Below are positions 18,460-21,211 of a stretch of DNA of 50,586 nt, piece after piece. The translations under genes and the position numbers were made by a program. Source of the DNA: Chlorobiaceae bacterium (GTDB lineage Bacteria; Bacteroidota; Chlorobiia; Chlorobiales; Chlorobiaceae); assembly GCA_013334865.1 (NCBI GenBank), contig JAAXWS010000018.1:1-50586 (forward strand). Reading direction: 5' to 3'. Below the pieces are notes generated by a model, which did no database searches, had not been told where the DNA came from, and saw only the letters and a program-made list of their open reading frames with translations. How positions within the stretch are numbered: position 1 is the first letter of the stretch; each line of letters starts with the position of its first letter.

Positions 18460-19674
18460 TTACATCTCGGCAGCCAACTCGGAGAGGTAGGTCTTGATCG
18501 ACTTGTGTTTGTCCAACCCGAGCTTTTTGTGCATCCGGTAGCGGATGCTTTCCATGCCCCGGGTTGAGATGCCGACCGAACGGGCGATCTCCCGGGTGTC
18601 GTAATTCAGCTTCACCATCAGGCCGATCCGGAGCTCCCGCTGGTTGAGGTTCGGATGCTTCTTCTGCAGTTTCGACAGGAATTCGGAGTCTCCTGTCGTC
18701 AGCTCCGTCTTGAGCCTTTTTTCGGCCAGTTCCGTCTCGAGCATTCCCTGGCACTGCTCTGTCATGCGGTTTTTGATGTGCTGTTCGATGTCAAGGGTCT
18801 TGATCTGGTCGCAGAGCAGGTGCAGGGCCGAACTCTTTTCACCGATAGCTGTCGAAATCCTGGTAAGCTCCATCTCCTGGGCCGAGATTCTCGATTTCAG
18901 CGCGGCTTTTTCCTGGGCGAACTGCTGCTGCTCCTTCCTGTTCAGCTCGACCTGGGCGTTCATGAGGATGATCTTCTGGGTCAGGCGATGCTCATAGTCG
19001 TTCCTCAGGCGCTGCTGCTCCTTTTCCTGATGCGCTTCCCGCGACCTCAGGTCCTCCTGCATGTGGGAAAGCGCTTTGAAATAGGGGTAGAAGGGGCTGT
19101 CGGTCGACGGCAGATTGATCTGCTGGTTGTACATGTTCAACCATGAGATCCTGGCAACGGCGGCAAGAAATTCGTTTTTCAGGATGGCGTTGGTTTCCTG
19201 CAGGGTATCTCCAGCCTCGTCCGCTTTGCCAGCCTTGATATCCATGACGGTCCTGATGGCATCATTGTAGTCCTCCCTGAGCAGCACGGTCATGTTGTTG
19301 GGGGTGATGGCCGCGAACGTTTCAACGATGATCCTGCATGACTCGTCGATATTGTAGAATATCACGACTGCAAATTTTGGGCCCCAATGAAAGATCAGGT
19401 CGTTGATCCCCTGCTTGTAATCGTAGGAGACGTCGAGGATGTTCTTCATGTCCCAGAGGAGGTAGGGGTGTGTGTCGGGGGGGGTGCTTTCCTTCAGCAC
19501 GGTTTTCACCAGTTCGTTGCTCAGGGTCTCAAGGGTGACCGGATGGGCCGCCTCGACGTATGCATGCAGAATATCATTGCCGATCAGATCGAGATGCTTG
19601 GTGTAACCGGAATGCGGCTCTTTCCAGTGCGGTTTGGAGGTGATCGGAAGGCCTGAAACTGGACATGTGTTCAT
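18460..19674 (-). CDS. LuxR-type HTH regulator with N-terminal STAS-like region (paralogue 1)
   Basis: A 404-residue protein of no named family I recognise. Visible parts: an N-terminal motif MNTCPVSGLPIT; an alpha/beta region about residues 25-160 (LDLIGNDILHAYVE, LLWDMKNILDVSYDY, FAVVIFYNI) that resembles a STAS/SpoIIAA-like fold; a conserved block FLAAVARISWLNMYNQQINLP; a long Glu/Gln-rich coiled coil about 215-300; and a C-terminal LuxR/GerE-type HTH beginning KKHPNLNQRELRI and including YDTREIARSVGISTRGMESI. It is probably a DNA-binding regulator with a sensing or partner-binding N-terminus. There is no kinase, receiver Asp site or membrane segment. Tandem with a clear paralogue 307 bases upstream on the same strand. 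An in-frame start at 19785 adds 37 residues absent from the paralogue, so I use 19674. Confidence 0.8.
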   Translation of the reverse strand: MNTCPVSGLPITSKPHWKEPHSGYTKHLDLIGNDILHAYVEAAHPVTLETLSNELVKTVLKESTPPDTHPYLLWDMKNILDVSYDYKQGINDLIFHWGPKFAVVIFYNIDESCRIIVETFAAITPNNMTVLLREDYNDAIRTVMDIKAGKADEAGDTLQETNAILKNEFLAAVARISWLNMYNQQINLPSTDSPFYPYFKALSHMQEDLRSREAHQEKEQQRLRNDYEHRLTQKIILMNAQVELNRKEQQQFAQEKAALKSRISAQEMELTRISTAIGEKSSALHLLCDQIKTLDIEQHIKNRMTEQCQGMLETELAEKRLKTELTTGDSEFLSKLQKKHPNLNQRELRIGLMVKLNYDTREIARSVGISTRGMESIRYRMHKKLGLDKHKSIKTYLSELAAEM

Positions 19675-19981
19675 GTTGTTCGGTATATCGTTATTTCGGT
19701 ATAGGATACACCCGTCATGAAGTGCTGTTAGGCGTAATGATGCGGGTGTTGAAGCATGATAAAGATTAAATTTGGTTAAATCCAAATGATTATACTTTTC
19801 AGGTGTAAGCCGCTGCTGTATTGTTTTTTTAAATAGCGGAGCCCCTGGCTCGTTATGTTTGACTCTTGGTGGCGTGTTGCTGGAGTATCTGTGCTTGTTT
19901 ATGCGTATTTGGGTGTCGAAGGGGGTGGGCTGCGGCGACGCCCATCCGGTATCCCGGACGGGACGTCGTGATACCGGTTCG
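19675..19981. other. AT-rich gap between the paralogous regulators
   Basis: Contains no gene. Near the right end CCGGTATC (19946-19953) and GATACCGG (19970-19977) form an inverted repeat right after the upstream paralogue's stop, likely its 3' hairpin. The remaining AT-rich 270 bases probably carry the promoter of paralogue 1, which implies that the two genes are expressed separately. Confidence 0.5.
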
Positions 19982-21211
19982 TCAGGAGTTGAATACCGGC
20001 AGGTTCGTCAGGTAGGTTTTCAGTGATCGGTGTTTTTCGATGCCGATTTTCCGGTGGAGACGATACCTGGTGCTTTCGATCCCCCGGACCGACAGCCCCA
20101 TCATGCGTGAAATGTCGCGCGAGTTGTAGTCGAGTTTGATGAGCAGGCAGATCCGCAGTTCCCGCTGGTTCAGGTTCGGGTGTTTTTTCTGGAGCATCGA
20201 GATGAATGCCGAATCCGCTTCAGTAAGTTCGGTATTCAGCTGCGCCTCTTTCCTGCCGGTTTCCACGAGATTCAGGCAGCAGCTCGAAAGTTTCTGCTTG
20301 ATTTGGGGTTCGGCGTCGAGGTCGGCAATCAGCTCGCAAAGGGTCTTCAGCGTGGATGTCTTTTCGGCGTTCGCCGTCGATATCCTGGTCGATTCGAGAT
20401 CGTGCGACGAAACCCTCGAGGCCAGCGCAAGCTTTTCCTCCCTGAACTGTCGTGCGTTCTTCCGGTTGAGCTCGATCTGGGCGTTGAGTGCCGTGGTTTT
20501 CTGGGCCAGCTGTCTCCTGCAATCTTCGAGCGTCTGGTTCAGGATCAGGTCGTGTTCGGCCTCCATGGACTTGAAGTCGCCCTGGATGACCTCGAGTGCT
20601 TTGAAGAACGGATAGGACGCATGCGTTTCGGAAGGCAGGTAGATCTGCTGGTCGAACATCTTCAGCCACGCCATCCTGGCCAGCGTCGACAGGAACTCGA
20701 CCCTGACGAGGGGATCCTGGCCTCCCCGGCTCTCTCCGGTGGCTTCATCCCGCATTTTGCCGGATTTGAAGCCCATGATGAAGGATATGGCCTCTTCATA
20801 GTTCCCGCTCAGGATGAAGGCAAGCCCGTGGGGCGCTATCGAACGGAACATATCGAGCTGGAGCCTGATCCCTGGATCGATGTTATAGAATACGACGATC
20901 CTGAAATCGGGGTTCCAGTTGTAGATGAGGCTGGTGAACTCCTTCTTGTACGCATAGCTGAAGCCGACGATGTTCGTGCAGTCGATCAGCAGATGCAACT
21001 GCTTTCCGGAAAGCTTCTCTTCCCTTATGAGTGCCGACAGCGTGGCCTGGTCGAGATGCTCGAGGATTATGCCGTGCCGGGCGCTTTTTTGGACGTGAAT
21101 GATGTCATTGCCGATCAGCGTGAATTTTTTTGTATAGTCTCCTTTCGGACTATCAAAACTCCATTGACTTCTTTCGGTGATCGGTAAGCCAGTTACCGGA
21201 CAGTGATGCAT
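19982..21211 (-). CDS. LuxR-type HTH regulator with N-terminal STAS-like region (paralogue 2)
   Basis: A 409-residue paralogue of the gene at 18460-19674, collinear over its whole length. It has the same N-terminal CPVTGLPIT motif, the same alpha/beta region (FTLIGNDIIHVQKSA, LHLLIDCTNIVGFSYAYK, FRIVVFYNIDP), the conserved FLSTLARMAWLKMFDQQIYLP block, a coiled coil, and the LuxR-type HTH (LQKKHPNLNQRELRICLLIK, ISRMMGLSVRGIESTRYRLH). The HTH and N-terminal motif are the best conserved parts and the coiled coil the least, as expected for a tandem duplication that has diverged. Ligand, partner and targets are unknown. It is divergent from the phosphatase operon, across an AT-rich 177-base gap. 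Confidence 0.8.
   Translation of the reverse strand: MHHCPVTGLPITERSQWSFDSPKGDYTKKFTLIGNDIIHVQKSARHGIILEHLDQATLSALIREEKLSGKQLHLLIDCTNIVGFSYAYKKEFTSLIYNWNPDFRIVVFYNIDPGIRLQLDMFRSIAPHGLAFILSGNYEEAISFIMGFKSGKMRDEATGESRGGQDPLVRVEFLSTLARMAWLKMFDQQIYLPSETHASYPFFKALEVIQGDFKSMEAEHDLILNQTLEDCRRQLAQKTTALNAQIELNRKNARQFREEKLALASRVSSHDLESTRISTANAEKTSTLKTLCELIADLDAEPQIKQKLSSCCLNLVETGRKEAQLNTELTEADSAFISMLQKKHPNLNQRELRICLLIKLDYNSRDISRMMGLSVRGIESTRYRLHRKIGIEKHRSLKTYLTNLPVFNS

Follow-up and report, generated by a model that had tools for sequence, protein, structure and literature searches.

Each part of the two proteins described here resembles something known. The STAS or SpoIIAA-like fold is found in SpoIIAA, in RsbS and in the DUF3478 protein 2q3l; described STAS proteins act on an anti-sigma factor or a transporter, and STAS folds occur in non-regulatory contexts too. 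Response regulators of the NarL/FixJ type, such as GacA/UvrY, MctR and DosR, have a LuxR-type helix–turn–helix (HTH) head together with a receiver, the module with the phospho-acceptor aspartate. Further relatives are regulators of Bacteroidota and Chlorobiota in which a TPR array or a Reg_prop/Y_Y_Y beta-propeller sensor is followed by a coil and a GerE-type HTH. Finally, NosP/FIST–histidine kinase systems have a counterpart beside short relatives of our proteins in Chlorobium.

In the window (the whole stretch of Chlorobiaceae DNA that was analysed, 50,586 nucleotides), two genes combine these parts in another way. Their products resemble STAS/SpoIIAA-like proteins in the predicted fold of residues ~20–150, but have neither a Pfam STAS match nor a clear phospho-serine loop, and the domain is fused to a coil and an HTH, in contrast to STAS proteins whose target is an anti-sigma factor or a transporter. 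They share the HTH head of NarL/FixJ response regulators without the receiver or its phospho-acceptor aspartate. With the TPR- and propeller-type regulators they have in common a homologous C-terminal coil and HTH, a cytoplasmic HTH and the lack of a receiver; their sensor differs, being a STAS-like domain confined to Chlorobiaceae. This is a new architecture built from known parts. The genes, A and B, and their domains are as follows.

18460 to 19674, minus strand: gene A, 404 aa, with a predicted STAS-fold N-terminal domain, helical bridge, coiled coil and LuxR/NarL-type HTH
19231 to 19617, minus strand: STAS-like domain of A, residues ~20–148, from the AlphaFold2 (AF2) model, VIA and Foldseek
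18715 to 19089, minus strand: long helix or coiled coil of A, residues ~196–320, placed by alignment with B, with gapless columns and a hydrophobic period
18469 to 18696, minus strand: LuxR/NarL-type HTH of A, residues ~327–402 (GerE E 0.029; 94% mean identity among A orthologues)
19982 to 21211, minus strand: gene B, 409 aa, a faster-evolving paralogue with the architecture of A
20753 to 21148, minus strand: STAS-like domain of B, residues ~22–153, from the full-length AF2 model and VIA
20240 to 20614, minus strand: long helix or coiled coil of B, residues ~200–324 (model helices 200–297 and 302–324)
19994 to 20221, minus strand: LuxR/NarL-type HTH of B, residues ~331–406 (fold match to DosR; GerE E 0.026)

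Both reading frames stand as the original prediction gave them, with 404 and 409 codons; that prediction did not name the strand. They are collinear, and B lies upstream of A in transcription order. The two proteins are 46% identical (E ~1e-114), in agreement with their earlier description as tandem paralogues, and are the sole two members of their family in the host genome (2.42 Mb, 44 contigs). Orthologues of 80–83% identity, together with the homologues present in 84 of 86 Chlorobiaceae genomes, rule out chance or antisense reading frames. A phage or defence origin was also ruled out, since no viral relatives were found and the PADLOC and PHROG matches were coil or HTH noise.

No described family accounts for the full length of A or B in the libraries searched: Pfam, NCBIfam, PHROG, PADLOC and the PDB by sequence gave nothing beyond a weak LuxR-type HTH match. 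Profile searches of PDB sequences had no significant match, and the NCBIfam matches were partial HTH matches to response regulators only. The absence of receiver, kinase and PAS domains, claimed from the sequence, was borne out by the Pfam and NCBIfam searches. No published description of these proteins or of their architecture was found in the literature searched, which lay mostly outside subscription journals.

A STAS-like region near the N-terminus had also been claimed, with structure prediction suggested as the check, and the claim was right at the level of fold. AlphaFold2, applied to single chains, modelled residues 1–160 of A with pLDDT 88.5 and pTM 0.83, and full-length B with mean pLDDT 87.4. 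STAS proteins dominate the fold-search lists for both predicted models. The N-domain of A aligns with SpoIIAA (1tid_D) with the highest VIA Z obtained, 11.8 (rmsd 2.5 Å, 112 aligned), and with the SpoIIAA-like DUF3478 protein 2q3l_B at a Foldseek E of 1.9e-4; the N-domain of B aligns with STAS proteins at VIA Z 10.7 (rmsd 2.7 Å, 112 aligned). Structure prediction thus confirms residues ~20–150 of A and B as a predicted STAS/SpoIIAA-like fold. By sequence, the Pfam STAS or SpoIIAA-like model did not match A or B up to E 10, and no STAS family was among the 25 Pfam families listed for 50 homologues. Profile comparison with STAS proteins by hhalign gave a probability of 5.5%, two of the STAS sequences being approximate, and was discarded as support because the signal was too weak.

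The fold neighbours of the N-domain, SpoIIAA, RsbS and RsfB, raise the question whether it works as a genuine anti-anti-sigma-type switch, in which phosphorylation by an RsbW/SpoIIAB-type serine kinase decides whether the HTH is released or captured. Conservation of D77 where the predicted third strand ends (44 of 50 homologues) would fit such partner switching. However, no phospho-loop of the DSSG type is visible. The loop at this place reads SYxYK, more generally [S/N/T/K][Y/F]xYK, with the register to SpoIIAA taken from a weak alignment; at column 85 a serine or threonine is present in 36 of 50 homologues, and no Ser/Thr column of the loop is invariant. Moreover, the A/B pair has no neighbouring kinase or phosphatase gene of such a system. 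We consider this switch unlikely.

The N-terminal Cys-Pro-Val motif, which had been called strongly conserved and taken as a sign of a function beyond DNA binding, showed a divided distribution. Of 27 A/B orthologues 26 retain Cys4-Pro5, as do all four upstream Chlorobium copies, and for these the statement holds; the motif is absent from all 19 other full-length Chlorobium homologues, and across all 50 homologues the cysteine occurs in 30. Trp17 and Tyr26 are much better conserved. Functional essentiality is therefore not supported, because most Chlorobium homologues have lost the motif, and an essential redox or metal site in general is ruled out by the same 19 proteins. Redox or metal sensing through this motif would be in line with its near-invariance in the A/B group, but it is a lone cysteine without a partner motif, and the 19 Chlorobium homologues without it keep the rest of the domain. 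Such sensing seems very improbable.

The second conserved element of the original prediction, the FLxxxARxxWL...P block, forms the bridge to the coil. Its F173, L174 and P193 are nearly invariant and the block is well conserved in A, so that the claim stands for these; in the Chlorobaculum orthologues of B it is strongly altered. In the AF2 model a helix at 165–183 is followed by a nearly continuous helix of ~125 residues at 200–324. The first 98 columns of this long helix have no indels across 50 homologues and its strongest hydrophobic period is 3.56, as expected of a coiled coil. Model and alignment thus both show the predicted coiled coil, as a long helix whose length does not vary.

For the C-terminus, the proposed LuxR-type HTH is supported by a weak GerE match and by fold. 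Pfam GerE scored 14.5 bits on A and B, below the cut-off of 23.5, and matched 46 of 50 homologues with a best E of 3.5e-4. The HTH of B superimposes on the C-terminal domain of DosR with VIA Z 9.3 (65 aligned, rmsd 2.3 Å), and LiaR and VraR were further fold matches.

The two halves of the protein have different distributions. A search across Chlorobiota and Bacteroidota, as suggested at the outset, matched a profile built from the first 210 residues in 78 of 86 Chlorobiaceae genomes and in none of 308 other Bacteroidota/Chlorobiota genomes, whereas the coil–HTH half is present in 84 of the 86 and recurs, more weakly, at the C-terminal end of regulators with TPR or Reg_prop/Y_Y_Y sensors in other members of the phylum (phmmer E down to 1e-18). 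Seven of eight outside relatives scanned have a TPR array or propeller/Y_Y_Y sensor, which A and B lack. The family thus appears, judging from these sequence comparisons, to join a lineage-specific input domain to a phylum-wide output module, the TPR or propeller sensor having given way to the STAS-like domain. The idea of regulators of green sulfur bacteria outside any named family gains support from the missing full-length family match and from the confinement of the N-domain to Chlorobiaceae.

Within the genus of the host, N-domain homologues occur in all 21 genomes, as a tandem pair in 19 and as A alone in two. The latter two indicate that A does not need B. Mean identities among orthologues of A and B are 94% versus 79% in the HTH, 74% versus 50% in the coil and 64% versus 52% in the STAS domain. 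By this measure A evolves slowly and B fast, and in both the HTH is more conserved than the STAS domain, a pattern of conserved output and variable input. In the tree, A and B of the genus form separate groups, which places the duplication before the radiation of the genus; the upstream copies of Chlorobium pairs have very long branches, and their placement is therefore unsure.

Taken together, A and B are probably cytoplasmic, dimeric, STAS-gated transcription factors of one undescribed family restricted to Chlorobiaceae. We infer that they sense a signal, dimerise, pair with each other and bind DNA, and that A regulates its own expression, in the following way. The STAS-like domain would be the input module and would be switched by a partner protein or a small ligand, presumably not by serine phosphorylation of the canonical kind. 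Dimerisation would be through the coiled coil, which would also relay the input to the HTH pair, and the STAS-like domain would stand in the place of the TPR or propeller sensor of the phylum-level relatives. A would be the conserved core regulator, using the dyad described below to act on its own promoter, and B, a diverged paralogue, would contribute a second input, perhaps in the form of a homodimer or of an A–B heterodimer. Heteromers joined by the coils, as proposed at the outset, would be compatible with the retention of the pair in 19 of 21 same-genus genomes, the fixed length of the coil and the slow evolution of A beside the fast evolution of B.

Two non-coding elements accompany the genes.

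19709 to 19748 (region 19697 to 19762), minus strand: conserved 40-bp dyad CACCCG-N28-CGGGTG just after a −10-like TATCAT and ~35 bp ahead of the A start codon
21212 to 21388, no strand assigned: AT-rich intergenic region (GC 0.31–0.34) between B and the divergent LMW-PTP/lipid-kinase genes; the divergent order is conserved

An AT-rich region had been described upstream of each gene. This is true for B; for A it applies only to the ~150 bp next to the start (GC 0.40–0.44), and the rest of the gap has a GC of 0.57.

The dyad stands upstream of A in all 19 same-genus genomes scanned, with one copy per genome. Across them it is 40–41 bp long and reads CACCYG-N28/29-CRGGTG, with TCAT/ATGA beside the arms, after a TATAAT-like box. 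No convincing second copy was found in the host genome or in the scanned same-genus genomes, and for this reason the dyad reveals no regulon; as a single conserved site, it is a candidate for binding tests. It is intact in two genomes that have A but no B (loci L045 and L046), and B is therefore not its obligatory reader. An operator common to A and B was ruled out: the two upstream regions have no joint motif beyond A/T runs, and the dyad is at A only.

The place of the dyad between the −10-like box and the start codon would also suit an RNA leader structure that controls translation of A. Nearly all the sequences can fold as a single strand, and one double change (CCCG/CGGG) in the window preserves the stem. 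However, pairing covariation was not above that of shuffled sequences and Rfam had no matching family, two results that rule out a riboswitch, and inverted half-sites suit a dimeric HTH protein equally well. A leader structure in place of an operator is a possibility to be taken seriously, if not the one we favour. With the operator reading retained, the dyad would be the site at which A acts on its own promoter.

The locus itself is fixed. Throughout the family it is flanked on one side by recG, rsgA and an aldehyde dehydrogenase gene, and on the other by genes for an LMW-PTP, a YegS-type lipid kinase and an alternative GlmU-type transferase. Little is known of how green sulfur bacteria regulate their genes, and a regulator family at one fixed locus in nearly every Chlorobiaceae genome offers an entry point. 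In Chlorobaculum relatives (L038–L044, e.g. L040:7533–8471) a DUF1848 gene, absent from the window, lies between A and the aldehyde dehydrogenase gene. In Chlorobium the locus has a full-length pair, one full-length copy or short coil–HTH forms of 170–215 aa; in another variant, a full-length copy and a short form flank the lipid kinase gene on either side.

At the syntenic locus in Chlorobium, genes for a NosP-like FIST protein and then a hybrid kinase often come after the short coil–HTH form (L069:5992–10653, also L071–L082). The FIST protein matched FIST at E 8.9e-44 and FIST_C at E 2e-36; it is not a NosP equivalog, since its score against the NosP model was 83 and the cut-off is 450. The kinase has PAS, HisKA, HATPase and receiver domains. 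Co-location of FIST and coil–HTH genes is clear: 18 of 23 FIST places across Chlorobiaceae are at most 1.3 kb downstream of a same-strand coil–HTH gene. One genome (G181, L124) has full-length, short-form and FIST genes in tandem, which rules out strict mutual exclusion of full-length forms and the FIST–kinase pair at the locus. No relevant paper on FIST in Chlorobi was found in the literature searched, mostly outside subscription journals.

This co-location and the tandem genome would be expected if the regulators were outputs of a NosP-like FIST/hybrid-kinase pathway, a protein of which docks on the STAS-like domain of full-length forms or on the bare coil of short ones. However, FIST is absent from the genome of the window and from all 21 same-genus genomes, at least three FIST–kinase pairs have no adjacent coil–HTH gene, and the kinase receivers have no obvious docking site on the coil–HTH protein. 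Moreover, the co-location may descend from one inherited event. We regard such an output role as improbable. Our preferred reading, input through the STAS-like domain, leaves room for a broader idea, which we hold to be rather doubtful: a new signalling design in which a coiled coil wires a STAS fold directly to a head that binds DNA, while at the same Chlorobium locus the FIST/hybrid-kinase pair serves the same output module in trans. If this were true, two distinct input routes would converge on one regulator.

Some individual loci depart from these patterns. At L036:5953–7227 the B orthologue has a very long branch, an altered HTH and no Cys-Pro-Val motif, and the dyad before A is decayed at the same locus. 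In a single-contig same-genus genome (G052, L016:1489–2748) the B frame is without its usual start and the Cys-Pro-Val segment, as if frameshifted by sequencing error or decay. The upstream paralogue at L025:98–1353 (G056) is split into two overlapping ORFs and is apparently broken. The FIST–hybrid kinase pairs without a neighbouring coil–HTH gene are at L125:4711–8660, L126:3387–7621 and L127:4158–8440, and two of these three adjoin a 6-phosphogluconate-dehydrogenase-like gene, as judged by eye.
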